Assembly (NCBI GenBank): GCA_946186575.1
Contig: CAMHNO010000025.1
Location: 1 to 35,764, forward strand
DNA: 35,764 nucleotides
Source: an uncultured Prevotellaceae bacterium
GTDB lineage: Bacteria; Bacteroidota; Bacteroidia; Bacteroidales; Muribaculaceae
Reading direction: 5' to 3'
Shown here: positions 1,662 to 27,801 of the stretch, one piece after another
Numbering within the stretch: position 1 is the stretch's first letter
Layout: each line of letters begins with the position of its first letter
Position numbers and translations under genes: made by a program
The notes under the pieces: model-generated
Databases searched by the model: none
Told to the model about the DNA's origin: nothing
Seen by the model: only the letters and a program-made list of their open reading frames with translations

Positions 1662-2993
1662 TTAGATTTCGGATTTCTTGAGTTTGAACTCGATGTGGTG
1701 GAACTTGTGCAGGGCGTAGATGATGCAGGCCTCGATGAGATAGGCAATCAGGTAGCTGTACCAGATAGCATTGGGGGCAACCTTTGCCATAATCCACAGC
1801 ACAGGAATCACCGTGAGCGAGAGGATGAAAGAAATGAAGAGCGCCATGCGGTGGTGGCTGTAGAGCTTGTAGATGATCATGAGCACATAGATGTAGCTGA
1901 AGAGGATGAAGCTCAGCGCAAACACGCGCAGCGCATGGCTGCTCTGGGCAAGCATCTCGGGCTCGTTGCAGCCAAAGAGCTCGGCGATGCCTTGAGGCCA
2001 CACCCACACCAGAGCGCATGTTACCACCATCGACACGGTGATGAAGCGCAGCCCCTTGTAGATGACTGTCCTCACTCCACTGTCGTCGCCCTTGCCCACC
2101 TGGATGGCTCCGAGCGACTGGAGTGTTTGGCATGTGCCCGAGATGAAGAGATTGTACACTTGCAGCAGGTTCATGCACAGGGCAAACACGAAGATGCCCG
2201 TGCGGCCAGTGGTGGAGAGCACGATGGTGTTGGCGCTAAGCAAGAGCAGTGTGAGGCATATCGAGGCCATTGCCAGCGGAGCTCCCTGTGATGCTATGCG
2301 ACGCCACATTGCCAACAGTCCGCCACCGCCAAACACGAGTCTCAGTCGCCTGTTCTCGGGCTTGCGCCAGTGGCTTAGCAGGATGGCGATGCCCACGAGG
2401 TGTCCCACTACGGTTGCGGCGCTCGAACCGGTGATGCCCCAGTCGAATACTTGGATAAACACGATGTCGAGCAGCAAGTTGACCACGTTGTCCACTATCA
2501 CCGCCATCGACACCAACTTGGGGCTACCATCCACGCCCACCATGGTCGAGAGGCCCCACATCACTATGAATGCCGGGTTGCCAATGAGCAGCACTTGCAT
2601 GTAGTCTTGCGCAAGTGGGAGGATGTGCTCGTTGCTGCACAGCAGGCGAGCCGTCTGTGAGGGGAACAACAGCCCACCAAAGATGGTGAGCAGCAGTCCC
2701 AGGCCCGTGCTCAGTGTGAGAGCACGGGTGAAGAACCGTCGTGCGTCGGCTATGTTCTTCTTGCCCAGGGCATAGCCCACGAGCATTCCGGCACCGGCAT
2801 TGATGAGCAGGTGCAAGGTGAAGATAAACTGGTTGATGGGTTTCGACAGGTTGATGGCGCTCACGCCATCCTCGCTGATAAGGTTGCCCACGATGATGCC
2901 GTCCACCACGTTGCCCAAGCATCCCGAGAGGGCCACCAGGATGTAGGCCCACAAGTAGTTATAAAATTGCTTATTTATGCTATTGTCGCTCAT
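1662..2993 (-). CDS. MATE family efflux transporter
   Basis: 443-residue polytopic inner-membrane protein, the usual length for the MATE family. These transporters export cationic drugs or metabolites in exchange for Na+ or H+. The N-terminal sequence (GNVVDGIIVGNLISEDGVSA, then AGAGMLVGYALGKKN) is the characteristic first-repeat signature. About a dozen hydrophobic segments follow, with a second repeat from roughly residue 230. Its own promoter lies at 3031-3062. It ends 117 bp before valS and could be read through into it. The substrate cannot be told from sequence. It is about 4.5 kb beyond the 3' end of the NRPS gene and separated from it, so a role in exporting the NRPS product is only a possibility. 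Confidence 0.92.
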   Translation of the reverse strand: MSDNSINKQFYNYLWAYILVALSGCLGNVVDGIIVGNLISEDGVSAINLSKPINQFIFTLHLLINAGAGMLVGYALGKKNIADARRFFTRALTLSTGLGLLLTIFGGLLFPSQTARLLCSNEHILPLAQDYMQVLLIGNPAFIVMWGLSTMVGVDGSPKLVSMAVIVDNVVNLLLDIVFIQVFDWGITGSSAATVVGHLVGIAILLSHWRKPENRRLRLVFGGGGLLAMWRRIASQGAPLAMASICLTLLLLSANTIVLSTTGRTGIFVFALCMNLLQVYNLFISGTCQTLQSLGAIQVGKGDDSGVRTVIYKGLRFITVSMVVTCALVWVWPQGIAELFGCNEPEMLAQSSHALRVFALSFILFSYIYVLMIIYKLYSHHRMALFISFILSLTVIPVLWIMAKVAPNAIWYSYLIAYLIEACIIYALHKFHHIEFKLKKSEI

Positions 2994-3175: not shown

Positions 3176-3256
3176 TGGCAAGATTTTAAATTTACGAGAA
3201 TCATCTTGTAGTACATCAACTTTTTTAGAAGAAGAAATAACAAGTAATTGAAGTCT

Positions 3257-4777
3257 ATGAAAAAATACATATTTATCTTATTGGTAACCTTGTGCCTCGC
3301 AAGTTGCGGGAGGTATCAGTTGCCATCATTTGGTTCTTCAAGCGATTGGGAATTAATCGACAACATGGTGATAAACAGCGATATGGCAGTTAACTTTGGT
3401 GGCAATGACATTCTTGCCAACGCCAGTAATGGAGACTATGACCTACACTTTATTACAAGTAAAGAAGGCTTTAATGCCTATGACCCTAAATGTGCCAAGT
3501 ATCTTGCCGACGTAGTCAAGCAGATACCCTTAAAAATTGATTCAATAGAGGTGATTCTTGCCGATCAATACCTGATTTTATCGACCAATGCCAATAGCGC
3601 GTGGGAGCCCGACTATGTGCGTCGTGCCGATGGCGCAATCCTAACCGTGCAGGCCAATCCTGTTCAGAGCCTCGTCCAGCCACAGGATGAATTGTGGCGC
3701 AACCTCATTATTAACAAGTCGAAACACCAAATCATTGTCGTTGACCGCCTGATAAAGAACAACAGGCACTATGCCATCGCCTATGTGCTACAGAGCGAGA
3801 GCAAGAGTTCGCCACTGTCGCGAAACATTCAATATGACATCACCAGTGCGCGTAATATCCAGTCAACTGGAACCATGCTCGAAGCCCTGATTAGCAAGTC
3901 GGTCGATGCTATGGTCGTCGAGGTCACAGCCATGAGTTATAACGATTACATAATGCAAGCCGACTCGTGTTTCATGCGAGGCAACTATGCTGAGAGCAGC
4001 AACGCTTTTGCCGAAGCATTCAAAATTAAGGATGCGATTCAGGGCACACACCTCTACAACGGTGCCTGTGCTGCGGCGATGGCAGGACTGAATGATGTAG
4101 CTTTTGAGCGGTTAAACATGCGACTCAACAGCGACCGCAATTGGTATGTTGACGATCCTAACCGCGACAGCGACTTAAGCAGCTTGCACAGCGACGTGAG
4201 GTGGAAAACCTATTGCGACACCATTATTGCTCGTCGCGACAGGATTGAGGCCTCATTCGACAAACCCTTGCAACGCAGGCTACAAGAGATTGGGCGTAGC
4301 GACCAGGAGGTGCGATATGAATTCCTTGCTGCCTACAATGCCCAACCTCGCAACCAGGCACTCGTCGATTCGCTTGTTGCCCAAATGCAACGTGTCGACA
4401 GCATCAACCAGTGTGCCATCAGCGAAATTCTCGACACGCGAGGTTTTGCGGGGCGCGACAAGGTGGGCGACGCATCGGCTGTGTATTGGCTTGTCATTCA
4501 GCATGCACCTGTTGAGATGCAGAAAAAGTATTTCCCTCTCTTTGTAGAAGCAATGGAGCGTGGCGACTTAGCTCGATCACAGGTGGCAATGATGGACGAC
4601 CGCATTGCCATGTTTGAGGGTCGGCCTCAGAAGTATGGCTCACAAATCGTGGAAAACGACAGGGGTGAACGTGTTATTTATCAACTCCTGGACCCCGCAC
4701 AAGTTGACGTGTGGCGCAAAGCAATGGACCTAAACCCACTGTCGGAGTACATGAAACAAATGGGAGTGGAGAAATAA
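3257..4777 (+). CDS. Lipoprotein with TPR-like region and C-terminal DUF6624 domain
   Basis: 506 residues from the ATG at 3257; an in-frame TTG at 3248 is a weaker choice. MKKYIFILLVTLCLASC is a lipoprotein signal ending in the LASC lipobox, so the mature protein should be membrane-anchored. The middle section (DSCFMRGNYAESSNAFAEAFKIK and following) looks like one or two tetratricopeptide-type helical hairpins. The C-terminal ~170 residues match DUF6624: a Q-rich helical start, then DKVGDASAVYWLVIQHA, then DDRIAMFEGRPQKYGSQ, ending with a pattern like LNPLSEYM. DUF6624 has no established function. The gene stands alone, with its own promoter and a strong terminator. Confidence 0.85.
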   Translation: MKKYIFILLVTLCLASCGRYQLPSFGSSSDWELIDNMVINSDMAVNFGGNDILANASNGDYDLHFITSKEGFNAYDPKCAKYLADVVKQIPLKIDSIEVILADQYLILSTNANSAWEPDYVRRADGAILTVQANPVQSLVQPQDELWRNLIINKSKHQIIVVDRLIKNNRHYAIAYVLQSESKSSPLSRNIQYDITSARNIQSTGTMLEALISKSVDAMVVEVTAMSYNDYIMQADSCFMRGNYAESSNAFAEAFKIKDAIQGTHLYNGACAAAMAGLNDVAFERLNMRLNSDRNWYVDDPNRDSDLSSLHSDVRWKTYCDTIIARRDRIEASFDKPLQRRLQEIGRSDQEVRYEFLAAYNAQPRNQALVDSLVAQMQRVDSINQCAISEILDTRGFAGRDKVGDASAVYWLVIQHAPVEMQKKYFPLFVEAMERGDLARSQVAMMDDRIAMFEGRPQKYGSQIVENDRGERVIYQLLDPAQVDVWRKAMDLNPLSEYMKQMGVEK

Positions 4778-4913: not shown

Positions 4914-5000
4914 AGCAAGCTCAGTACTCCTCTCACTTAAAAATGCGATTAAGTGAGATAAAGCATGAGCTTGCTAAATGCTTTGCGAGCGTGAGCATTT
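4914..5000 (-). terminator. Nested hairpins at the 3' end of the adhesin-like gene
   Basis: Three perfect inverted repeats lie just past the stop codon of the minus-strand gene: AAATGCT/AGCATTT (4976-4982 with 4994-5000), AGCAAGCTCA/TGAGCTTGCT (4914-4923 with 4966-4975), and within the last one CTCACTTAA/TTAAGTGAG (4932-4940 with 4949-4957). They probably protect or end the transcript. No long U-tract was seen, so classic intrinsic termination is uncertain. Confidence 0.45.
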
Positions 5001-7363
5001 TATCTAATCAGAACTTTCTTGTTGCCGTTCAGGTAGATGCCTGGAGTAACGGGCTTGCCATTGAGTTTCTGGCCGCTGATGGTGTACCAGTCGTTGCTGT
5101 GGTTGCTGCCGGCTGCAATTGTCTCGATGGCTGAGGGCGAGCCGATGATGTAATCACCAATCTTGCGAACGATGATGTTTTCGTTGGCGTCGGCCACAAC
5201 CACTGAGAGTTGGCCACTGACGTTGACGTTGATGCCTTGCTCGTCGTCATAGTCTACCCAGCCTTCGGGGGCCTTTGAACCAGCAGGAATGAACATATAC
5301 CAAACAGCGCCATTCTCGGGCATATTCTCTACAGTGACATGAACGATGGTAGGAGCATCATAGGTGCCAAAGTCATTGTCGAGAGTGATAACTGGCTCAG
5401 CATCGAGTGTGGTGAAGAAGGCCGAGGCGGTCCAGTCGGAGTCTTCGACATCCTCATAGATGGCCTGTACTTGTGCTTCGTAGTCGGTGCTGGGAGTCAA
5501 GCCCTCTATTGTGGTGGGGCTGGTCACGTTGCTCAGAGTAATCCACTCGCCAGCAGGAATCTCCTCTCCATCGAGCGAGATTGCGTCAACAAACAGGTAG
5601 TAGCCACTGTTGCCGCTACTCTCGTGACGGATGGCGATGTAGCCCTGCTGACCCTCATAAGCTGTCAAGTCGTAGCTTTGCTCTGCCCAGTTGTTAATGA
5701 TTCCCGAAGTGGCCACATTCTCGCCGAGAGCTGTGAAACTGGCAGGGTCGGAGCCATTGGTGGAAATCATCACGCTGAAATGCTCGATGTTGCTTGCTCC
5801 CAGGTCGGCGACATAGAACCTGAGAGTTCCCCTCAGGTCAAGTAGTGGACTGATGAGCCAGTTGTCGCCTGAGATATATCCCCAGTCATCATTAAGATAA
5901 CTCTTTGATGCCATAACATAATCGCCATCGGCAGCAACAAGTGGAATGCCACTCATCGAGTAGTTGTTCATATTCAACATTTCCCAGTTGACTTCATCGC
6001 CATCGTTATCGACTGCGGTCCAGCCCCCCAAATCATTCTCGAAGCTTTCCTGGTACAGCTTCACATAGCCGCCCTTAGTGCGATAGCGCAGATTGTAGGC
6101 CTCGGCCATGCCTGCCCAAGTGGCGTCGGCAGTGGTTGATGTAACGTTGCTCACAGCAAGGTTGGTGGGCTTGGGGTTAGGGTTGGATTCATAGGTGTAA
6201 GAGGCAAACTGGCCAGCAGCCGGTGGAGCGCCTGCAGGACTATTGTAGATGGTCTGGCCAAAAGGATCGGTGATTGAGAAGGAACATTCATTATCGTAGT
6301 TGCCCGACACCCAAACGAAGTTGTAGGTATCGCCCGGGCAGATGCCGATGGTGCCCGAAGCCGTTTGTGAGGTGACAGTAAGGGTCTGAATCACTTCGTT
6401 GGTTGCGGCATCAATCACATTGATAGACGCACCGTTCCATCCGTCACCATAGGAGTCGTTGAGGTTGTAGGTGATGAATCCCATGTCATCACATTTGAGA
6501 GTGGTAAATGATGTTGTGGCCCAGCTGCTCAGGTTTCCGTTGCCATAGTCGCCTTGAACGCGCACATTATAGGTGGTGTTGTTGTCAAGAGCGTCCAGCT
6601 CATAGTTTGTAGCGGTCAAAGGCACGGTGGTCCATTCCTCGTCGCTGGCCTTCTTGTACTCAAGATTCCAGGCAGTTTCATTGCCGCCAGGTTGCCAAGT
6701 GGCCTTGGCACTATTGGAAGCGATGTCGGTCACCTGCAAGTTCACAGGCTTGTAGTAAACTGGTCCCTCACTGGGAGTGTAAGTAAACGTGGTTTTTGGG
6801 ATAAAGTTGCGCTGTGTGGCGGTGGCATTATCCAGGGTGTAGGCGCTGTATCCCGAAATCGAGGCCCCCTCGACGTTCTGACCATAGAAATACATGTGCT
6901 TGTACTGAGCGTCGGTGGTGTTCTCAATGCCAATGAGCAGGTTTCCGCCATCATAAGAGTAAGGCGTGGTAAAGGTGATGGTGAGCAAGCCTCCGCCATC
7001 GGTTGCGACAAAGTCGAGCGTTCCTTGATAGACCATGGTGGCTGCACTCTTGGGCTCATAGGCGCTAATTGTGGTGTAGTCGACCTCCATCAGATAAACA
7101 TCGGCTGTAGAGAGCGATGTGTAGGGAATGTTCTCAGTGTTGGTGTAGAACGTCAAGGCACTGATAGTGCCTCCAATCATTTCCTCCAGATCGGTGGCAG
7201 GAATAACAGTTTGACATCTTGTGAAGTCGTCCCAATAATAAACGTAGGCAGGAACTTTGTCGTTGGTTGCTGTTCCATCATACACCGTCAGTTCGGCTGC
7301 AACAGCAGGCTTAAATGCTGCCATTAGGACAAGAACTAAAAAATAGAATAATTTCTTTTTCAT
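5000..7363 (-). CDS. Secreted multidomain adhesin-like protein (FN3, jelly-roll, T9SS-like tail)
   Basis: 787 residues. The signal peptide MKKKLFYFLVLVLMAAFKPAVA directs export. Residues ~25-200 form a beta-rich N-terminal domain. An FN3-type domain follows at ~208-290 (PVNLQVTDIASNSAKATW). A DSYGDGWNGA-containing beta domain lies at ~292-397. A second FN3 domain appears to be interrupted by a 'cleaved adhesin'/choice-of-anchor-J type jelly roll at ~440-600, which begins ESFENDLGGWTAVDNDGD. The C-terminal tail, WYTISGQKLNGKPVTPGIYL then a basic end, resembles type IX secretion sorting domains. A surface or extracellular binding role is inferred; no catalytic motif is visible. It lies downstream of the NRPS on the same strand but is separated from it by a terminator. 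Confidence 0.82.
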   Translation of the reverse strand: MKKKLFYFLVLVLMAAFKPAVAAELTVYDGTATNDKVPAYVYYWDDFTRCQTVIPATDLEEMIGGTISALTFYTNTENIPYTSLSTADVYLMEVDYTTISAYEPKSAATMVYQGTLDFVATDGGGLLTITFTTPYSYDGGNLLIGIENTTDAQYKHMYFYGQNVEGASISGYSAYTLDNATATQRNFIPKTTFTYTPSEGPVYYKPVNLQVTDIASNSAKATWQPGGNETAWNLEYKKASDEEWTTVPLTATNYELDALDNNTTYNVRVQGDYGNGNLSSWATTSFTTLKCDDMGFITYNLNDSYGDGWNGASINVIDAATNEVIQTLTVTSQTASGTIGICPGDTYNFVWVSGNYDNECSFSITDPFGQTIYNSPAGAPPAAGQFASYTYESNPNPKPTNLAVSNVTSTTADATWAGMAEAYNLRYRTKGGYVKLYQESFENDLGGWTAVDNDGDEVNWEMLNMNNYSMSGIPLVAADGDYVMASKSYLNDDWGYISGDNWLISPLLDLRGTLRFYVADLGASNIEHFSVMISTNGSDPASFTALGENVATSGIINNWAEQSYDLTAYEGQQGYIAIRHESSGNSGYYLFVDAISLDGEEIPAGEWITLSNVTSPTTIEGLTPSTDYEAQVQAIYEDVEDSDWTASAFFTTLDAEPVITLDNDFGTYDAPTIVHVTVENMPENGAVWYMFIPAGSKAPEGWVDYDDEQGINVNVSGQLSVVVADANENIIVRKIGDYIIGSPSAIETIAAGSNHSNDWYTISGQKLNGKPVTPGIYLNGNKKVLIR

Positions 7364-7500: not shown

Positions 7501-10500
7501 TTACTCCAGGTCGAAGAAGCCCAGGCCACCAATAGCTGTGAGCATCCGCTCCACATAATCCCACGAGGTGGGCGACCAGGCGAAGCCCAAACGGTAGAGC
7601 ACCTGGGTGGTGTAGTCGTTGTCGCGGGTCACGTCGGTAGTCTTTTGGCCATGCGCCATGTCCTGGTAGGCGAGCAGACTCGACATCTGCCGAGCCTTGG
7701 CTGGATCGTTCTTGGCCTCATCCATTGCCTTGTCGAAGTCTTCCTGCTCCACAAATCGGATTCCCTCGCCCACCGTGTGCAGTCCCATGAGCACGTCGCC
7801 CAGGAACTGAGTGTGGATGTTATAGGGATGGAACACGCAGCACTCGCGCGGTGTGGTGGCAAGCATCACGATGGCATGTGCCACCTCGTTGATTGGTGAG
7901 AACTCAACGCGCTTGTTGCGCATGCTGTAGGGGCACTCTCCCAGCATGTTGTAGACCTTGATGCGGCCCATGAAGGAGTTGGTCTGGAAGTTGGCTTGGA
8001 ACTCACCGTCGGTCGAGCGTGCCGCGAGGTTGCCCACGCGCATTATCTTGGCGCTGAGCCCCTGGTGGGCTACTGCGTCGAGAATAAGGCGCTCGGCCAT
8101 GAACTTGGAGTAGATGTACTTGTTGCCCAGGAACTGACCCATGAAGAGGCGTTGCTCGGTGAATACATCGTCGCGCGCCTCGCCTGCCCACAGGCCTCGG
8201 GTGCTGGCAGTGGAGATGTGAATCAGTTTAGCGTCTTTCTTCAGGCAGTAATCCACGCAGCGTTGAGCTCCGCCTATGTTCACATCCTCAATCTCGGTGC
8301 CCTCGCTAAAGTGCTTCACGATGGCAGCGCAGTTGACCACAGTGTCGATGTCGAGATTCTCGCCAAAGTCGCTCGTCACGTCACCCACCACGATGTGAAG
8401 GCGACTGCCAAAGAGATCTTGGAATGCGTTGGCAAAGTAGTAGTAGAGCAGTGTGCGCAAGCGGCTCTCGGCCTTCTCGGCATCCTTGCCGCGCACCAGA
8501 CAGTAGATGTTGCGTGCATCGCTGTCGATGAGTTCGCGCAGTATGTGTATGCCTAAGTAGCCCGTTGCGCCCGTTAGCAGCACATTTCCAAGTTGCTGGC
8601 GCTCGCCATGACGGAAGGCGTCGAGCGTACCAGCCTTGAGCACCTCGTTGATGGCGGTGTAGTCAAAGCCCTTCACCTCGTCGGGACCCTCGGCAACTGT
8701 CTCGCCTGTGACAAGGCTTGCCAGCTGTCGTGGAGTGGGATTGGCGAAAACGTCGCCGTAGGCCACGTGCATACCAGCTTTGTCGGCCTCGATGATCACG
8801 CGTGTCACCACAAGCGAGGTTCCGCCCAGCTCGAAGAAGTTGTCGGTAGCCCCCACCTTGTCCATTTGCAGGATGTCGGCAAATATTTCACAGAAGGTGC
8901 GCTCGGTGTCGGTTGCTGGCTCTTCGTAGGCCGATGCGATGGCAAGTTCGGGTTCGGGCAGTGCCTTCACGTCGGTCTTGCCGTTGGGGGTCATTGGCAT
9001 CTTGTCGAGCTGGCGATAAGCCGTTGGCACCATGTATTGAGTCAGGCTCTTTGAGATTTCGGCTTTGAGTGCGTCGGGAGCGATTTCACGGTCGGCAGTG
9101 TAGTAGGCGCACAAGTGCTCCTTGCCGCCAATCTTGCGAATCATGATAACCACCTTGTCGATGCCTTCAACACGGAGCATCACGTTCTCTATCTCGCCAA
9201 GCTCAATGCGCAATCCGCGCAGCTTGATTTGGTGGTCGGTGCGACCCAGAATCACCACGTCGCCGTCGGGTAGCCACTTGGCGTAGTCGCCACTCTTATA
9301 GATGCGAGTGCCGTGATAGTCGACGAATCGCTCACGGGTCATGTCGTCGAGGTTGTTATAGCCGCGTGCCACACCGCGGCCGCCAATGTAGAGCTCGCCC
9401 ACAACGCCCACAGGCAACTCATTGCCGTCGGTGTCAACGATGAATTCCTTGACGTTGAGCTGTGGCTTGCCCACAGTAACAATCGAGGCACGAGTGAGTT
9501 CTTTGTTGTTCGACGCCACAGTAATTTCGGTGGGACCGTAGCAGTTGAAGATGCGGGCCTTGGTCACCGAGCGCACTTGCTTGAGCAACTGGTCGCTGAA
9601 CTTCTCGCCACCGGCACGCACAATGGCGATGCCGGCAATGGCACGAGCAAAGTCGTCGCTCGTGAGCCACGTTTGCCAGCGCGATGGCGTGCCGCTCACC
9701 ATGTTGATGTGTTGCTCGGTGATGAGCGCAGCCAGGTCGAGCGGGTTGTTGGCCTGCTCCTCGGTGGCGACAATGAGCGTCTTGCCGTTATAATAGGCCA
9801 TGCCTATGTCTTGCAGTGCGGCGTCGAACGAGATGGTTGTCACACTCAGCACACGCTCGGCATCGGTGAGCACAGCGTTGGCAAACACATTGGCGGGATG
9901 CCCATAGAGGTAGTTGCAGATGCCTTCATGCCTCAGCATCACGCCCTTGGGTCGGCCTGTTGAGCCACTGGTGTAAATAAGGTAGGCAAGGTCGTCGGGA
10001 GTGATGTCGGGCTTGCAATACTCGGCATCGCTGGTGATTAGGTCTTCGACATTTATCGCTTTCTCGGCCGGAACGCTGTCAATCTTGTCGGCAGTGGTGA
10101 TGATGTAACGTGCCTCACTGTCCTCAAGAATGAGCTTAATGCGGTCGGCGGGATACTCTGGGTCGCAAGGTATGTAGGCTGCTCCCGTCTTCAGCACGCC
10201 AAAGAGTGCCAGAATCAGGCGGCTGGTGCGAGGCAGCAGCAGTGCCACGCGGTCGCGTTCTTTCACGCCACGAGCCTGCAGTGCCGCTGCAATGGTGGTG
10301 GTGACCTCATTCATCTCCTTATAGGAGAACTTGCCGTCGACGGCCACCAGAGCGTCGTGGTTTGGCTGAGAAGCTGCGAAGTGGCCTATGCACTCATGCA
10401 TCAGCTTGAATGGCGCGTCGCCGGTTGCCACCTCACGCAGCTTTGTGAGTTCGGCTTCTTGGTCGTTGCTCACGATTGAGATGTGACGCACGTTCTCACT

Positions 10501-13500
10501 TGGTTTCTCAATCATGCGGCTGGCAACGGCTCCGATGCTTTGTGAGAGTGCTGTTGCCAGCTTCTCGGAATAGATGGCATTGTCATATTGCACCACAATG
10601 CCACGCGACTCTATTTTGATGTTGATTTTGAACTTAGGCACATTGAGCTCGAGCAGTTCCTGCTCAATAGTTTCGCCGTTAAGGGTGTAGCGCGAGAGCA
10701 CTCCCACTTGATAGGCATAGGCGATAGCTGGTCGGAAACCGTAGTCGGCAGCGATGCGGGCAAAGGGGTAGTCCTCGTGGCGCAAGGTGTTGTCAAATGT
10801 GTTGCTTGTGCCCTTGAGGAAGTCGCTCACCGTCACGTCGTCGATGCTTATGCCTAATGGTAATGTGTTGACAAACATACCCACTGTGTCGGCAATCTTC
10901 AGGTTGGAGCGACCGCTGCTCACGGTGCACAAGTACACCTCGCGGTTATTGGTGTAGCGCGATACCACATAGGATGTGGCAGCGAGGAAAAGGTGGGCCG
11001 GAGTTACCTCCTGGTTGCGGCAATAGGCGGCAACCTTGTCGTGGTCGACAGCGCACACTGCCTCGCCAATAAAGCCTTGCTGGTCGCTCTTGGGCAGGTC
11101 GCCTGGAATTTCGCTGGCTCCCTCACAGGTGGCAAGACGCTCGGCGAAGAACTGCTGCGAGGCCTTGAATGTGTCGCTCTCCTCGGCTGCCAGTTGGTCG
11201 GTGACGAAGTCGAGGTAAGAATAGGTCTCTTTCTCTACACTATTGCCCTCTAAGGTATTGCTGATTTGGCGAATGAGCAAGTCGGCGCTGCCACCGTCGA
11301 AGAGCAAGTGATGAACGTCAAAGAGCAGATGCACGCCGCTTGGTGTTGTAACTACCTCAAAACGATAAAGTGGGGCCTTCTGCAAGTTGAAGGGCTTCAC
11401 AAACTCGTTCTTATAGGTTTCCAGTTCCTTGTCGCTCATGTGAGTGACAGGTATGTTGACTGGCACACCGTTCTCTGTGGTCTGCATTATCTTATCGCCC
11501 TCGGTGGTGAAATGCACGCTAAGCTCGGGATGACTCTCCACCACTTGTTTCACTGCGTCGGCAAGTTTCTGGGCATTGGTGTCATAGGGGTAAGATAGCA
11601 GATATGGGATGTTGTAGATGGTTGAAGTGGAATTTTTCAGGCACTCGAAATAAACACCGGTCTGTGCGTATGACAGCGGCACAGCAGTCTTTGTCTCGCC
11701 CTTTGCCTTTGATGCCGAAGCGGGAGATTTCTCGCCAGCCATGAGGTGGGTGAGAATGTCGTTTTCTATGCTCTGCAGTGTGCCAGTTTTGACGAGCGAC
11801 TTGGAGTCGAGAGCCACGCCATAGCGCTTGTTGACTTGCACAGCAAGACGAATTGACGAAATAGATGTCAAACCGGCATAGCCTAATGGTGTGGTGATGC
11901 CAAACTCGCTATTGCCCACAATTCCCGCTACTATCTCGTGCAACTGCTGCTCGAGAACATTCATGGGCACGTTGCTCTCCTCGAGGGCTGCCTCAGCCTT
12001 CTTTTCGGGCTTGGGCAGGGCACGTTTGTTCACCTTCTGGTTCTGGTTGAGGGGGATTGCGTCGATCTGCATTGTCACAGCGGGAACCATGTAGGGAGGC
12101 TTCTCGTCAAGGATGAAGTTGTTGAGGGCATCGATGTCGATGGTCTCATCGCTCACGATATAGGCTGCTATAAACTTGCCGCCGCCTTCCTCGTCAAACG
12201 CCTGAACAGTGGCGTCCTTGATGCCTGGGAACTCGCGTATGATGCCTTCCACCTCCTTGAGCTCGATGCGGAAACCGCGAATCTTGACCTGACCGTCGCG
12301 GCGACCCACAAACTGGATGTCGCCACTGGGCAGATAGCGAACAATGTCGCCGGTGCGATAGATGCGGCAGTATTTCTTCTCGCTGGTGAAAGGGTTGTCG
12401 ATATAAACCTCGGCAGTCTTTTCGGGGCGGTTCAAGTAGCCACGACTCACCTGCGGGCCGGCCACCCATAGTTCGCCAGCGGCTCCCACAGGCAGCCGGT
12501 GGCACTGCGGGTCGACGATGTAGAGCCGCATGTTGTCGAGAGGCTTGCCAATGGGGATGTCCTTAATGTAATGCTCTACGGGGAATGTAGTGGTGAAAAT
12601 GGTGCACTCGGTGGGACCGTAACCATTGTGGAAAGTGTAGCCCGTGGGTGGGGTGAGTGGGGCAAGCTTCTCTCCGCCAGTGCTCAGGTGTAGCAGCGAG
12701 TGGTTCTCGATGCCGGTGGCAAACTGGTAGCCCACCTGTGTGGTCATGAACGAGTGGGTGATGCCGTTGCTCTCGAAATATTCGTTAAGGGCTATAAGGT
12801 CGAGCCTTAGCTCCTCGGGCACGATGTGCACTGCGGCCCCGCAGGTGAGGGCGGGATACATGTCCATCATGCAGGCGTCGAAGCCATAGCTGGCATAGGC
12901 TGCCACGCGGTGCTCGGGCTTGAGGTCGTAGTAGCGATGATACCAGTGGCAGAAGGCCACAAGGTTGCGGTGGGTGAGCTGGCAGCCTTTGGGCACGCCA
13001 GTCGAGCCGCTGGTGTAAAGCATGATGAAGAGCTGGTCGGGCTCGATGGTCACGTTGGGAGCTGGAGCGCTGGGCAGACCGCTGAGGTCGCTGGTGAGCA
13101 GCACTTCGCCCTCATATTCGTTGACGAGTGGTCGCAGCTCGGCATCGGCGATGAGCAGCCGTGCACTTGCATCTTTCATCATGAAATTGAGGCGCTCGGT
13201 GGGATAGCTCGGGTCAAGGGGCTGATAGGCGCAGCCAGCCTTGAGCACACCTAATGATGCAATTGCCATCCACTCGCATCGTGGAATTAGCACACTCACC
13301 ACATCTTCCTTGCCCAGTCCCTTGGCTGCGATAGCGGCAGCAATGCGGTTGCTGATGTCATCTACTTGGGCATAAGTGTAGCTGCGTCCATTACAGACAA
13401 CGGCAGTGTTAGATGGAGTGGTCTCGACTTGATGCTTGAAGAGCGACACGATAGTGTGCGTGTCGTCGTAAGGCATGTCGGTGCAGTTGAAACTGTCGAG

Positions 13501-14754
13501 TGCTTCGACTTGCGATGATGTGGCAATATCAATGTCGCACAACTTTTGCCCAGAGAGTAATCCCTCGACCACAGCTTCATAACTCTCGAGCAGCTGAGCT
13601 ATAAGCTCTTGTGAATACTCATTGCTGCTGTACTCGGCTTTTACATTAACTTTGCCATCAAGAATGAATGTCTTGAGATAGAGCGAGGCATCGAGGGTGC
13701 TGTTGCCCAGGCGCATGGCTTTCATGGGCTTGCCGGCCCACTGGCTGTCGCTAAAAATATTGCCATGCCATGCAAACATGGCGTTGGTCTGCAGGTTCAT
13801 GTCGGTCATCAGGTCGCTGTAGTTGTAGATGCACCGCTGGCGGCAACCGCTCATCTGCTCCTGCAGTGAGCGCATGAAGTCGAGCACGGTGGTCTCGAGC
13901 GAGAACTTGCCATAGACAGGCAATGTCTTTACCATCATGCCAATGGTGCCAGCCATCAGCTTCGAAGTGCGACCATTATACACAGTGGTGAAGAGCGACT
14001 CTTGTTCGTTGTTGAACTTTGCCAGCAAGAAACTGAAGGCCGAGGTGAAGAAGCTGCTCTTGTAGATGCCATTATCGCGGCAAAACTGCTCGACGCGCGC
14101 CAGATTCACACTCAAGGTGCGCAGCAGGCTCGACTCGCTCGGTTCCGGCTCGTAGCGGTCAGGCATGAGCTGGGTGAAGGTGTCGCCGCAGTCGAAGGTG
14201 GAGGCATACCATTGCCTGGCTTCGTCAAACTCTGGCTTCTTGCGACCGATGGCCTCGTCAAGAGCGATTTGGGCCATGGTGATGCCCTCGGCGGGAATCT
14301 GGTGGCCACAATAGGCTCGCTCCATGTCGTGCAGCAACAGCTGCATCGATGTGCCGTCCACGATGATGTGGTGGTAGTCCACAAAGAGGTAGCAGTGCAT
14401 GCTGTCGCGCATCAGGCTCACACGGAACAGCCGGTCGCCACAGATGTTGAACGGTTGCACCAGCCGGGTCTTCTCTTTCTCTATGTCGGTAATGTCTTTA
14501 ATCTCAATTGTCAGGTCCTCATTGTCGAGGTCGAGTGTTTGCACGGGCTCGCCATCATCGCCAAGCTCAATGCGGGTGAACATGGTGGGGTGCGACTTGA
14601 GGGCGGTTGTCACTGCTTGGCGCAGTTGCTCGCAGTCGAGGCTGCCGTCAAGCTCATAGATGTAAGGCAGATTGTAGCGCGCCTCTCCGGGATGGCTCGC
14701 GCAGTCAACATACAGCCCATACTGCGACGCGCTCAGTGGGGCGATGGTTTTCAT
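7501..14754 (-). CDS. Nonribosomal peptide synthetase, C-A-T-C-A-T-reductase
   Basis: 2417-residue two-module cytoplasmic assembly line. C1, ~1-415, has HHIIVDG at 128-134. A1, ~435-925, has YTSGSTGVPKG at 580-590 and GYGPTE at 711-716. T1, ~930-1003, has a probable phosphopantetheine serine S964 in AGLTSIS. C2, ~1022-1430, has HHLLFDG at 1148-1154. A2, ~1450-1935, has YTSGSTGRPKG and its lysine at 1926. T2, ~1945-2018, has FFELGGTSL with S1980. A thioester-reductase domain, ~2050-2400, has TGATGYLG (2061-2068) and a Y2213xxxK2217 pair. Known NRPSs with this last domain release the product with NAD(P)H as an aldehyde or alcohol. A dipeptide aldehyde, possibly N-acylated because the protein opens with a C domain, is therefore inferred. 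My manual A-domain codes suggest an aliphatic then an aromatic residue. The start codon lies 6 nt after the STAS stop codon. Confidence 0.95.
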   Translation of the reverse strand: MKTIAPLSASQYGLYVDCASHPGEARYNLPYIYELDGSLDCEQLRQAVTTALKSHPTMFTRIELGDDGEPVQTLDLDNEDLTIEIKDITDIEKEKTRLVQPFNICGDRLFRVSLMRDSMHCYLFVDYHHIIVDGTSMQLLLHDMERAYCGHQIPAEGITMAQIALDEAIGRKKPEFDEARQWYASTFDCGDTFTQLMPDRYEPEPSESSLLRTLSVNLARVEQFCRDNGIYKSSFFTSAFSFLLAKFNNEQESLFTTVYNGRTSKLMAGTIGMMVKTLPVYGKFSLETTVLDFMRSLQEQMSGCRQRCIYNYSDLMTDMNLQTNAMFAWHGNIFSDSQWAGKPMKAMRLGNSTLDASLYLKTFILDGKVNVKAEYSSNEYSQELIAQLLESYEAVVEGLLSGQKLCDIDIATSSQVEALDSFNCTDMPYDDTHTIVSLFKHQVETTPSNTAVVCNGRSYTYAQVDDISNRIAAAIAAKGLGKEDVVSVLIPRCEWMAIASLGVLKAGCAYQPLDPSYPTERLNFMMKDASARLLIADAELRPLVNEYEGEVLLTSDLSGLPSAPAPNVTIEPDQLFIMLYTSGSTGVPKGCQLTHRNLVAFCHWYHRYYDLKPEHRVAAYASYGFDACMMDMYPALTCGAAVHIVPEELRLDLIALNEYFESNGITHSFMTTQVGYQFATGIENHSLLHLSTGGEKLAPLTPPTGYTFHNGYGPTECTIFTTTFPVEHYIKDIPIGKPLDNMRLYIVDPQCHRLPVGAAGELWVAGPQVSRGYLNRPEKTAEVYIDNPFTSEKKYCRIYRTGDIVRYLPSGDIQFVGRRDGQVKIRGFRIELKEVEGIIREFPGIKDATVQAFDEEGGGKFIAAYIVSDETIDIDALNNFILDEKPPYMVPAVTMQIDAIPLNQNQKVNKRALPKPEKKAEAALEESNVPMNVLEQQLHEIVAGIVGNSEFGITTPLGYAGLTSISSIRLAVQVNKRYGVALDSKSLVKTGTLQSIENDILTHLMAGEKSPASASKAKGETKTAVPLSYAQTGVYFECLKNSTSTIYNIPYLLSYPYDTNAQKLADAVKQVVESHPELSVHFTTEGDKIMQTTENGVPVNIPVTHMSDKELETYKNEFVKPFNLQKAPLYRFEVVTTPSGVHLLFDVHHLLFDGGSADLLIRQISNTLEGNSVEKETYSYLDFVTDQLAAEESDTFKASQQFFAERLATCEGASEIPGDLPKSDQQGFIGEAVCAVDHDKVAAYCRNQEVTPAHLFLAATSYVVSRYTNNREVYLCTVSSGRSNLKIADTVGMFVNTLPLGISIDDVTVSDFLKGTSNTFDNTLRHEDYPFARIAADYGFRPAIAYAYQVGVLSRYTLNGETIEQELLELNVPKFKINIKIESRGIVVQYDNAIYSEKLATALSQSIGAVASRMIEKPSENVRHISIVSNDQEAELTKLREVATGDAPFKLMHECIGHFAASQPNHDALVAVDGKFSYKEMNEVTTTIAAALQARGVKERDRVALLLPRTSRLILALFGVLKTGAAYIPCDPEYPADRIKLILEDSEARYIITTADKIDSVPAEKAINVEDLITSDAEYCKPDITPDDLAYLIYTSGSTGRPKGVMLRHEGICNYLYGHPANVFANAVLTDAERVLSVTTISFDAALQDIGMAYYNGKTLIVATEEQANNPLDLAALITEQHINMVSGTPSRWQTWLTSDDFARAIAGIAIVRAGGEKFSDQLLKQVRSVTKARIFNCYGPTEITVASNNKELTRASIVTVGKPQLNVKEFIVDTDGNELPVGVVGELYIGGRGVARGYNNLDDMTRERFVDYHGTRIYKSGDYAKWLPDGDVVILGRTDHQIKLRGLRIELGEIENVMLRVEGIDKVVIMIRKIGGKEHLCAYYTADREIAPDALKAEISKSLTQYMVPTAYRQLDKMPMTPNGKTDVKALPEPELAIASAYEEPATDTERTFCEIFADILQMDKVGATDNFFELGGTSLVVTRVIIEADKAGMHVAYGDVFANPTPRQLASLVTGETVAEGPDEVKGFDYTAINEVLKAGTLDAFRHGERQQLGNVLLTGATGYLGIHILRELIDSDARNIYCLVRGKDAEKAESRLRTLLYYYFANAFQDLFGSRLHIVVGDVTSDFGENLDIDTVVNCAAIVKHFSEGTEIEDVNIGGAQRCVDYCLKKDAKLIHISTASTRGLWAGEARDDVFTEQRLFMGQFLGNKYIYSKFMAERLILDAVAHQGLSAKIMRVGNLAARSTDGEFQANFQTNSFMGRIKVYNMLGECPYSMRNKRVEFSPINEVAHAIVMLATTPRECCVFHPYNIHTQFLGDVLMGLHTVGEGIRFVEQEDFDKAMDEAKNDPAKARQMSSLLAYQDMAHGQKTTDVTRDNDYTTQVLYRLGFAWSPTSWDYVERMLTAIGGLGFFDLE

Positions 14755-14760
14755 AGGGCT

Positions 14761-15063
14761 TTACTCAAAGTTGAACAGGTTAATAAATCCAGTCATTTTG
14801 AACACATTCATGATGTCGTCGTTCAGGCCTTTGAGGGTCACGGTGTGGCCGTGCGACTTGGCCCTCTTGAGGATGCCGAGCAAGATGCGCAGGCCGCTCG
14901 ATGCGATGTACTCGAGCTTCTCGCAGTGGATGGTGATGTCTCGGTCCTCGTTGTCGTAGAGGGGTTTCATCTCTTTCTCTACCTCTACTGCGGCAGCTGT
15001 GTCGAGCTGGCCTTCGAATGTGGCAACAAGCTTGCCGTCGATTTCATTGATTGTAGTCTTCAT
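14761..15063 (-). CDS. STAS-domain protein (anti-sigma factor antagonist-like)
   Basis: 100 residues from MKTTINEIDGKL. An upstream in-frame ATG would add 24 residues that do not resemble the fold and would start beyond the likely promoter, so the start at 15063 is preferred. The whole protein is one STAS domain of the SpoIIAA/RsbV type. EYIASSGLRILLG is the conserved switch motif, with the phosphorylatable serine expected at S55 or S56, and FEGQLDTAAA forms the first strand and helix. Family members bind kinase/anti-sigma proteins when dephosphorylated. The aspartate often found before the serine is replaced here (IASSG). It is the first gene of the NRPS operon, and no kinase or PP2C phosphatase is nearby. 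Confidence 0.9.
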   Translation of the reverse strand: MKTTINEIDGKLVATFEGQLDTAAAVEVEKEMKPLYDNEDRDITIHCEKLEYIASSGLRILLGILKRAKSHGHTVTLKGLNDDIMNVFKMTGFINLFNFE

Positions 15064-15189: not shown

Positions 15190-16365
15190 TTAGTCTTCTA
15201 ATGATTGAGGCGCAGTGGCGGGGCTGTGGACGGTGCGGTTTGACGAGTAGTTGCTTGTGATGTCGCCGATGTTGGCAATGTCGAGCATCAGGTAGATGAA
15301 ATAGTCGAGTTCCTCTTTCTCCATGCCAATGCTGCGCCAGTAGTTGTAGAAGCCCTGGGCAAGGTCGTTGCTGGGCCCGAAGGAGCGGGCATAGTTGATC
15401 ACGCTGCGAATGCCGCTGCGAGTGCGCTTGTTGCTGCTGCCCAGGCTCAGCGTCGAGAGCTCAAAGTCGCGGCTCAGGTCCACCTCGCTCATTCCCAAGA
15501 GCCCACCCACCAGGCAGCTCACCATGCCGCAGCGGTCGCACCCTATGGCGCAATGCCAGTCCACATTTTTGCCTTCCATGAGTCGCGACAATATCCATCT
15601 GAGGTCGGTCACAGCCACTTGAGCCGAGCGCTCGCTTGCCAGCCCCTTGAAGAACGGGCTGTGGTCTAAGCGCAGATAGTCCTTGTCGGCTCCGAGAGCC
15701 GAGGAGGTGCGTTTCACCTCGTGTCGCAGGTCGAGCTCGGCCACCACCTTCAGGTTGTGGACAAAGTCGTGCCGGCCATTACTGTTGATGCGGTCGAGGC
15801 TCGCGCTGCGGTAGAGCCTCCCGTATTTCACCGGCACGCCATATTGAGTTTGCCATCCCCCCATGTCGCGCACGTTGGCACAGTTGCGCACCTGTATCAT
15901 CCTCAGCTGGCCTATGGTGCGGAACACTCCGCTCGCCTTGAGACTGACGGTGCCGTTATGGAGCATCTCCTCCACCTTGTAATAGTAGATGCAATTGGGC
16001 AGCAAGTTCCTGATGACGAATGTGGTGTCGCTCTTGTCGTCAGGGTTGAAGGTGTAGCCATTGCTGTAGTCGCTGTTCTCGCTTGCGGTGATGCGAATTT
16101 CGCGTATGTTTTGTGCCGAGGTGCTCGGGTGCCAACTCACCGTTTTGCCTGCAGGCCAGTAGAGCTTGTTGCCATAAATGTTGGTATTATTATATTTCGT
16201 GATTACGCTCACTCGCGAGTCCTTGTTTTGGGTATAGGTATTTAATGCATCGGCCATATAATCCTGAACGGCACGATTCTCGATGTTAACCACCTCGATG
16301 TTGTCCTGTCCCCAAGCAACCGTGGCAAGCACTATTGCGGTTAATAAAAAGCTTAATTTCCTCAT
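15190..16365 (-). CDS. Secreted tyrosine-phosphatase-like protein
   Basis: 391 residues. The signal peptide MRKLSFLLTAIVLATVAWGQ indicates export to the periplasm or beyond. Residues ~30-150 form a beta-rich, FN3-like domain (FVIRNLLPNCIYYYKVEE). The catalytic domain begins with NVRDMGGW (~164-171) and LYRSASLDRI, typical of the bacterial tyrosine/serine phosphatase family. It carries the CX5R signature HCAIGCDR, with nucleophile C272 and R278. The general-acid region was not assigned. The substrate is unknown: phosphoprotein, phosphoinositide and phytate-like substrates are all handled by relatives. The gene has its own -7 element and ends 126 bp before the STAS start, so it is probably not part of the NRPS operon. 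Confidence 0.85.
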   Translation of the reverse strand: MRKLSFLLTAIVLATVAWGQDNIEVVNIENRAVQDYMADALNTYTQNKDSRVSVITKYNNTNIYGNKLYWPAGKTVSWHPSTSAQNIREIRITASENSDYSNGYTFNPDDKSDTTFVIRNLLPNCIYYYKVEEMLHNGTVSLKASGVFRTIGQLRMIQVRNCANVRDMGGWQTQYGVPVKYGRLYRSASLDRINSNGRHDFVHNLKVVAELDLRHEVKRTSSALGADKDYLRLDHSPFFKGLASERSAQVAVTDLRWILSRLMEGKNVDWHCAIGCDRCGMVSCLVGGLLGMSEVDLSRDFELSTLSLGSSNKRTRSGIRSVINYARSFGPSNDLAQGFYNYWRSIGMEKEELDYFIYLMLDIANIGDITSNYSSNRTVHSPATAPQSLED

Positions 16366-26958: not shown

Positions 26959-27801
26959 ATGAAAAAATACTTTGCCTTATTTCTCGTGTTGATAGTCTCG
27001 CAAGTGGCTTTCGCTCAAAATGGCGATGTGAATGGTGACGGAGCGGTCACCTCAGCCGATGTCACATGTCTCTACAACTACCTGCTTAGTGGCGACGAGA
27101 GCTATTTAGCCACCAGCGATGTTGACGGTGATGGCTATATCACGGTAGGTGATATAACATCGATCTATAATATCCTATTGGGCCTGCCCAACTATGAGTT
27201 CGTTGACCTGGGCCTGCCCAGCGGCACGTTGTGGGCGACGATGAACGTGGGTGCCAACAGCCCCGAGGAATATGGTGACTACTTCGCCTGGGGTGAGACC
27301 ACTCCCAAGGATTTATACGACTGGAGTACCTACCAGTGGTGCATGGGCAGTCGCAGTTCCTTTACCAAATACTGCACCGACAGCAGTTTGGGCTACAATG
27401 GCTTTGTCGATAACAAGACGGAGCTTGACCCAGAGGATGATGCCGCCACTGCCAACTGGGGCGAGATGTGGCGAATGCCGTCAGATGACCAACTATATGA
27501 GCTTAAAGATGTATGTATATGGCAGTGGACCATGAGGAACGGCGTGAACGGCTACTTGGTAACCAGCAACCACAATGGCGCGTCGTTGTTCTTGCCGGCT
27601 GCCGGCTTCCACTGGAATGGCGGGCTCAGTAACGCTGGGGCGGGCGGCTTCTATTGGTCGCGTACGCTCTACAGCGGCAATAGCGGCACCCGCCCGTACA
27701 ACGCTTACAGCTTGTACTTCTATTCGTACGGAAAGTTTTTTGACTTCAACTACCGGAGCGACGGTCGAAGCGTGCGAGCTGTGCGTGTTTCGCAGAATTA
27801 G
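26959..27801 (+). CDS. Secreted protein: dockerin-like pair plus 'LPSGTLWAT' C-type-lectin-like domain
   Basis: 280 residues with the signal peptide MKKYFALFLVLIVSQVAFAQ. Residues ~21-75 hold two dockerin type I-like calcium loops, DVNGDGAVTSAD and DVDGDGYITVGD, each followed by a helix. Residues ~80-280 begin FVDLGLPSGTLWATMNVGA, a domain widespread in Bacteroides and Prevotella surface proteins that resembles the Fibrobacter 'major paralogous' (FISUMP)/DUF1566 type. The last ~65 residues are rich in Y, S, N, G and R and end GRSVRAVRVSQN. Surface binding is inferred. A second protein with the same domain lies at 31940-33172. The domain portion is more GC-rich than that paralog. Confidence 0.8.
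   Translation: MKKYFALFLVLIVSQVAFAQNGDVNGDGAVTSADVTCLYNYLLSGDESYLATSDVDGDGYITVGDITSIYNILLGLPNYEFVDLGLPSGTLWATMNVGANSPEEYGDYFAWGETTPKDLYDWSTYQWCMGSRSSFTKYCTDSSLGYNGFVDNKTELDPEDDAATANWGEMWRMPSDDQLYELKDVCIWQWTMRNGVNGYLVTSNHNGASLFLPAAGFHWNGGLSNAGAGGFYWSRTLYSGNSGTRPYNAYSLYFYSYGKFFDFNYRSDGRSVRAVRVSQN

Follow-up and report, generated by a model that had tools for sequence, protein, structure and literature searches.

A dimodular, reductase-terminated peptide synthetase of Bacteroidales and its conserved operon with a putative partner switch and exporters

The window analysed here, a 35,764-nucleotide stretch of DNA from an uncultured Prevotellaceae bacterium, encodes a nonribosomal peptide synthetase (NRPS) that is ordinary in its enzyme class and unusual in the control that is bundled with it. 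In related Bacteroidales the gene recurs in an operon with genes for a membrane sensor, a STAS protein, an outer-membrane barrel and a MATE efflux protein, and this regulatory and export operon is more informative than the enzyme itself. Our reading of the system, to which we assign a probability of roughly one half, is that the NRPS would make a dipeptide aldehyde with an acyl cap, predicted to be a fatty acid, that the sensor and STAS protein would act as its switch, and that the MATE protein and the barrel would export the product.

Domain organisation and relatives of the synthetase

The NRPS gene is a single intact frame on the minus strand that starts with ATG and has zero internal stops, and the plus-strand reading of the same interval contains 28. 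Pfam places two Condensation, two AMP-binding, two PP-binding and one NAD_binding_4 (reductase) domain in the protein, all above the curated cut-offs. The initial annotation had proposed an intact 2417-residue C-A-T-C-A-T-reductase with catalytic motifs in every domain, and both proposals are borne out by the following features.

7501..14754, minus strand: whole NRPS (P0001), dimodular C-A-T-C-A-T-R, 2417 aa (open reading frame, Pfam)
13447..14739, minus strand: C1, N-terminal condensation domain, residues 6-436 (Pfam, alignment)
12004..13446, minus strand: A1, residues 437-917, pocket letters DAMQSGGIF (Pfam, alignment, PDB match)
11755..11967, minus strand: T1 carrier, residues ~930-1000, Ser964 (Pfam, alignment)
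10447..11688, minus strand: C2 condensation domain, residues 1023-1436 (Pfam, C-domain search, alignment)
8959..10407, minus strand: A2, residues 1450-1932, pocket letters DAQSRGCVA (Pfam, alignment)
8713..8898, minus strand: T2 carrier, residues 1953-2014, Ser1980 (Pfam, alignment)
7555..8586, minus strand: R, thioester reductase domain, residues ~2057-2400, Thr2182, Tyr2213 and Lys2217 (Pfam, PDB match, alignment)

Slightly narrower limits were also read for A1 (439-917), A2 (1452-1932) and R (2057-2370). The HHxxxDG motif is found in both C domains, and the reductase glycine motif reads TGATGYLG. An alignment of the window protein with 76 sequences from 80 related loci (77 rows, from which 10 of 86 clustered relatives with lengths outside 2300-2699 aa were excluded) shows no variation, in any of the 77, at the reductase Thr/Tyr/Lys, at the serine of each carrier or, in C1 and C2 alike, at the second His and the Asp; the Gly of the C1 motif is kept in 76. 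The protein thus has the complete C-A-T modules, terminal T-R, catalytic triad and Rossmann glycine motif of a reductase-terminated NRPS. Median identity of the 76 relatives to the window protein rises from 58% in C1 through 73% (C2), 78% (T1), 80% (A1), 83% (R) and 84% (A2) to 86% (T2); C1 is thus the least conserved domain, which would fit an acyl group that varies among relatives. A C-domain search of the source genome (2.7-Mb assembly, 94.8% complete) for a second NRPS matched only two places, both in this gene.

The NRPS has at least 7975 homologous matches. Among 120 that were listed (query included), 111 are 2402-2435 aa long and the other 9 are 3485-4140 aa. In a genome collection 585 matching stretches were confirmed, and a chance open reading frame is excluded by these together with the many listed homologs of near-equal length. 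We kept 80 of the 585 as loci, with record titles that name Bacteroidales, Bacteroidia, or families or genera of Bacteroidales. Their best-segment identity to the NRPS is 52-88%, and 77 extend to residue 2408 or beyond. Isolate names place 60 of the 80 in ruminant genome sets (RUG, which we take to stand for rumen, RGIG, Tb.RUG, reindeer and red deer), the source being not evident from the other 20. In five loci (L028, L063, L066, L072 and L078) another long NRPS is encoded close by in the same orientation, and some of these differ in their adenylation pocket letters (one example is DVEQSAGII / DAESTGVDD).

Predicted release, acylation and substrates

Searched alone against the PDB, the R domain matches 6vtj (223 bits), the AusA reductase 4f6c (122.5 bits), MxaA (57 bits) and carboxylic acid reductases (29-30 bits). 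The entry 6vtj is titled 'Non-ribosomal peptide synthetase' and is presumably a PCP-R protein of Methanobrevibacter ruminantium. A grouping of R with inactive or unrelated dehydrogenases had been named in advance as evidence against the proposed aldehyde; on similarity scores R instead lies closest to 6vtj and AusA, with Thr/Tyr/Lys intact. Chain release is thus very probably reductive, and to this extent the original assignment of a dipeptide aldehyde stands. The aldehyde itself, as the form in which the product would be released, has better than even odds, since two- and four-electron reduction, and with them aldehyde and alcohol, are not separable by reading a sequence.

The N-terminal position of C1 bears on what would be released. 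N-acyl peptide synthetases are expected to have an N-terminal C domain with a catalytic HHxxxDG, and C1 has both attributes. A starter subtype would be expected as well; in a PDB comparison the best matches of C1 are all modest (TycC 72 bits, Txo1 52 and bacitracin synthase 51). Such an N-terminal domain often goes with N-acylated peptides (PMC2812497), and the product is likely N-acylated via C1. A gene of ~450-530 aa that resembles AMP ligases (Pfam AMP-binding below cut-off) directly follows the NRPS in L004, L016, L022, L046 and L067; we take it to be of the PaaK type, and it could supply an acyl starter.

N-acylation would block pyrazinone formation, because an N-acylated amine cannot cyclise. 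The initial annotation had held aldehyde, alcohol and pyrazinone to be indistinguishable; the intact N-terminal C domain narrows this against the pyrazinone, which we rank lower as a default product, and the aldehyde/alcohol part of the statement stands. A different outcome, possible but unlikely, is that R reduces twice to give an N-acyl dipeptide alcohol, or that C1 is inert and a free-amine aldehyde goes on to a pyrazinone as in the aureusimines. The top NCBIfam match of the NRPS is indeed the AusA model NF047350, at 1142.2 bits and thus below the family cut-off of 2500. To our knowledge AusA is without an N-terminal C domain of this kind, and the invariant His and Asp of C1 also speak against an inert domain. 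AusA yields pyrazinones and its reductase is a two-electron enzyme (PMC8210680); R is closer to it than to MxaA, which argues against the double reduction. Reductive release of an N-acyl dipeptide aldehyde is thus the reading that we carry forward.

Adenylation pocket letters were read by hand-placed motif anchoring on the GrsA scheme. Those of A1 open with DAMQSG in most of the 77 rows, and the closest PDB relative of A1 is the first A domain of the linear gramicidin synthetase LgrA (386 bits), which activates Val. The first residue is probably hydrophobic. A2 gives no confident substrate: its letters DAQSRGCVA are identical in 57 of 77 rows, 7 rows have DAHSRGTVS or DAHSRGSVS and 4 have DMKSMGTVS.

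A second residue that is acidic, with a conserved Arg at pocket position 299 of A2 (Lys at position 239 in another clade) binding the side-chain carboxylate and the product ending in an aspartyl or glutamyl aldehyde, seems rather unlikely to us. The Arg is kept with both the commonest code and the DAHSRG codes, and the DMKSMGTVS rows have Lys at 239; against this, 9 of the 77 rows carry neither Arg nor Lys, the A2 positions depend on hand-placed motifs, and we know of no published signature that the A2 code fits. For the preferred N-acyl dipeptide aldehyde we go no further than a probably hydrophobic first residue.

The conserved operon and its candidate switch

In the window the NRPS is accompanied by the following genes.

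14761..15063, minus strand: STAS protein of the anti-sigma-antagonist type, 100 aa, motif IASSGLRIL, 6 bp upstream of the NRPS
5000..7363, minus strand: fn3 / choice-of-anchor J (Cleaved_Adhesin) protein, 137 bp downstream of the NRPS
1662..2993, minus strand: MATE efflux protein that clusters with the MATE following the NRPS in most relatives (Pfam, clustering)

A longer, TTG-started version of the STAS frame reaches 15135. The MATE gene is set apart from the NRPS by the gene at 5000-7363 and by an opposite-strand gene at 3248-4777. The locus L065, with an NRPS 88% identical, has a similar fn3/choice-of-anchor J gene between NRPS and MATE and is without the window's extra opposite-strand gene; the fn3 gene is probably an inserted neighbour outside the core cassette. 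Just upstream of the STAS gene, at 15190-16365 on the same strand, lies a gene for a secreted-looking Y_phosphatase3 protein, in the place that the sensor gene has in most relatives. Elsewhere in the window, 26959-27801 encodes a short dockerin type I protein.

The source genome encodes its sensor (731 aa) and barrel (444 aa) next to each other on another contig (G000:C19:30344-33881). It has one SpoIIE, one STAS and one ACPS-superfamily match, and these genes are thus the sole candidate partners found in it.

Neighbour clustering in the 80 loci, together with tblastn counts, gives a recurrent co-directional order of sensor, STAS, outer-membrane barrel, NRPS, MATE and often a phosphopantetheinyl transferase (PPTase), with gaps of mostly a few to tens of bases. 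Pfam on examples describes the sensor (~737 aa) as an MCP-like PDC/dCache domain followed by SpoIIE and HATPase_c_2, the barrel (~450 aa) as Alginate_exp, the MATE protein as ~444 aa and the PPTase (~195 aa) as a member of the ACPS family; the STAS protein has 100 aa. By tblastn, of the 65 loci whose upstream flank reaches 4.5 kb or more, 60 contain STAS, 54 the sensor and 54 the barrel; of the 66 that extend 3 kb or more downstream, MATE is found in 54 and a PPTase in 33. The full set of sensor, STAS, barrel and MATE is present in 41 of the 56 loci with enough flank, and 15 are without at least one of the four nearby. Three neighbour clusters, c10 and c11 at the STAS position and c7 at the PPTase position, proved to be antisense frames and were set aside for the tblastn counts.

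The sensor and STAS proteins together have three of the parts of an Rsb-type switch: a PP2C/SpoIIE phosphatase with metal-binding aspartates, an RsbW-type HATPase with N and G boxes, and a STAS domain with the SSG serine. Among the 65 aligned sensors, all longer than 650 aa, every one retains the PP2C aspartates and ~98% retain the N-box Asn and G-box glycines; the STAS motif SSGL is kept in 53 of 54. A profile of 33 sensors matches the Cache sensor 3lic, 3ke6 (Rv1364c), RsbW, SpoIIAB and SpoIIE, and a structure prediction (input 33 of 61 sensors of 700-790 aa) reached a mean pLDDT of 84.1 and a pTM of 0.55.

We assessed co-occurrence in 198 genomes of the family at our own cut-offs (NRPS, C domain <1e-30; STAS, <1e-13 plus a short frame; SpoIIE sensor, <1e-40). 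An NRPS was found in 19, a STAS-only protein in 22 and a strong SpoIIE sensor in the same 22. All 19 NRPS genomes have sensor and STAS, as do 3 of the 179 others, the remaining 176 having neither (Fisher's exact p = 1.1e-23 with kinship ignored, a value inflated because related genomes are not independent). The 19 span 7 genera, with 13 in the genus of the window, and the NRPS shares a contig with STAS in 17 and with the sensor in 16, one genome (G154) having them on a shared contig yet >50 kb apart.

These counts depend on several choices. The NRPS count keeps G156 despite a 1442-aa frame and a second match of 8e-4, and leaves out G043, G071, G081, G090 and G099, in each of which a single, weaker C domain was found (E 1e-17 to 1e-25); with these five as NRPS-positive, STAS and strong sensor are present in 19 of 24. 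The STAS count leaves out 7 matches in 402-596-aa frames, 5 genomes having only such a match, and the SpoIIE count leaves out 3 genomes at ~1e-29 and 23 with a best match of 1e-8 or weaker. Across the order SpoIIE occurs in 292 of 393 genomes, so that co-occurrence is informative inside the family only.

Three genomes carry the sensor/STAS pair without an NRPS, and the pair is thus not exclusive to it. G164 keeps sensor, STAS, barrel and PPTase, and the stretch read there contains neither an NRPS nor a MATE gene. In G004 (L091 6749-17999) a related Cache-SpoIIE-HATPase sensor and STAS protein, at 32% and 39% identity, directly precede genes for LuxE, a LuxC/AMP-ligase fusion, a protein with weak GNAT similarity and an MFS transporter; this single case suggests that the switch can serve another aldehyde-forming pathway. 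G144 has a pair without such neighbours. Separately, STAS fused to an APH-type phosphotransferase domain occurs at L093 7865-9058 and L095 6076-7368, the one in L093 next to a second sensor of the same genome.

Linkage, co-occurrence and intact motifs together suggest a switch role, and control by the sensor/STAS pair is quite likely. That sensor, STAS and barrel instead form a separate signalling unit that merely shares the locus, the NRPS being constitutive or otherwise controlled, is doubtful: the three NRPS-less genomes, the unlinked sensor of the source genome and the protein distances in 38 loci (STAS-sensor correlation 0.77, versus 0.15 and 0.36 for STAS and sensor with A2) would agree with it, but both proteins are present in every NRPS genome of the family, 60 of 65 loci have STAS no more than 4.5 kb upstream, and a similar grouping surrounds an archaeal NRPS (mru0068, PMC2812497). 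In the same 38 loci both proteins give correlations of 0.49 to 0.67 with the other domains compared, A1, C1, C2 and R.

Proposed model and relation to known systems

Covariation of the exporter with the synthetase fits product export, in a distance-matrix test on related sequences. Across 60 loci, partial correlations of MATE distances were 0.49 with A2 and 0.40 with A1 (each with 0 of 499 permutations as high), 0.20 with R (5/499), 0.12 with C1 (12/499) and -0.36 with C2, and median MATE identity is 0.72 within A2 codes and 0.59 between them. When only the 50 loci that share the most frequent A2 code are taken, the five domains correlate with MATE at 0.37-0.53, and A2 (0.47) does no better than A1, the highest (0.53), or R (0.50).

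In the model that we favour, C1 would load an acyl group, the NRPS would join two amino acids, the first probably hydrophobic, and the NAD(P)H-dependent R domain would release an N-acyl dipeptide aldehyde, reduction being supported by homology and the aldehyde being the predicted end product. The membrane Cache sensor, through its SpoIIE-type phosphatase and RsbW-type kinase, would set STAS phosphorylation and so switch production, export or response, and the product would leave by the MATE protein and, in most relatives, the outer-membrane barrel. We know of no sigma-B in Bacteroidota. A bolder and improbable extension is a self-contained signalling circuit of ruminant Bacteroidales, in which the acyl-dipeptide aldehyde, or a derivative, would cross both membranes via MATE and barrel and the sensor would read the same or a processed molecule and act through STAS on a non-sigma-B target.

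The sensor input can be compared with rumen dCache_1 serine phosphatases, which are among putative AI-2 receptors and make up 4.41% of the receptors listed (PMC9540692). The motif given there comprises R126, W128, Y144, D146 and D173 in PctA numbering. Our sensors have the same sensor-plus-phosphatase layout, but two of the five required residues look missing: by eye, >90% of 65 sensors retain the residues of PYxD and GxD, whereas the presumed Arg column has Arg in 28% and the Trp column has Phe in 71%. The full CahR-type AI-2 motif thus looks absent. The pocket seems to keep the amine-side residues and to have lost the Arg with which Cache domains for amino acids and AI-2 bind a carboxylate, as would suit a ligand without a free carboxylate. 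We found no link to an NRPS in the available portion of that paper (PMC9540692).

Single proteins with kinase and phosphatase domains that act on a STAS-only protein are described for SypE/SypA of Vibrio fischeri and PA3346/PA3347 of Pseudomonas aeruginosa (PMC8256260). The operon sensor likewise combines both predicted activities in one protein with a putative STAS-only partner; it differs in its input, an extracytoplasmic Cache domain and not a response-regulator receiver, and in having an NRPS as output neighbour.

The closest precedent for the grouping as a whole is archaeal. Leahy et al. 2010 placed the M. ruminantium M1 NRPS mru0068 beside two serine phosphatases, an anti-sigma factor antagonist and MatE, with a PPTase in a further cluster, and already proposed sensing, regulation and export (PMC2812497), so that an NRPS product under such sensing and export had been suggested before. 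The protein has two C-A-T modules and a terminal thioester reductase according to the legend of Fig. S8, the text naming a thioesterase, and a full-length relative occurs in Syntrophomonas wolfei (PMC2812497). For M. ruminantium under lauric acid, values of 1.06 to 1.64 are tabulated for mru_0351, the two MatE genes and the PPTase (PMC5816558). Likened by description, as given in the available portion of the source, our operon has the same layout of two C-A-T modules plus reductase, phosphatase, anti-sigma antagonist and MatE. This cassette is present in most relatives and in part in the window, where STAS is linked and the phosphatase unlinked. The Bacteroidales operon differs in fusing phosphatase and kinase in one Cache sensor and in its spread among mostly ruminant Bacteroidales. 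A barrel gene is not expected in M. ruminantium, because it is an archaeon without an outer membrane.

AusA/PznA of Staphylococcus aureus, which makes the aureusimine pyrazinones, is likewise dimodular with a homologous terminal reductase, and NF047350 aligns with our NRPS over long stretches; the window protein differs by its extra N-terminal C domain, and reaches 1142 of 2500 bits. We know of no partner switch beside AusA. Guo et al., in 2017, reportedly described a gut NRPS family of 47 clusters. Such a family of 47 clusters makes dipeptide aldehydes and pyrazinones (PMC8210680, PMC11257994, PMC12282076, PMC10039858), with N-acyl tails named as a stabilising feature (PMC8210680) and Ruminococcus and Blautia given as sources (PMC10039858). 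Likened by description, in the portions of these sources available, the window NRPS would be expected to share their release chemistry.

We searched literature on rumen NRPSs and on NRPSs linked to a partner switch, by title and abstract start and mostly outside subscription journals, and did not find the Bacteroidales operon among the papers listed. The combination of an outer-membrane barrel with a sensor that fuses Cache, phosphatase and kinase domains did not appear in them either. Rumen NRPS clusters run into the thousands, with 5,346 in 8,160 genomes and 934 in Bacteroidaceae, and some from Prevotella are among the clusters expressed more in less feed-efficient steers (PMC8241843).

The operon offers sensor, switch, synthetase, primer and exporters in one locus, which makes trigger, molecule and target all testable, and it may connect what was, in 2010, a curiosity of one archaeon with a large family in bacteria. 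Were the signalling circuit true, the like grouping in a rumen methanogen would point to a signal type common to bacteria and archaea. Should the product prove to be a peptide aldehyde, it might act as a protease inhibitor in a setting where proteolysis governs nitrogen use.
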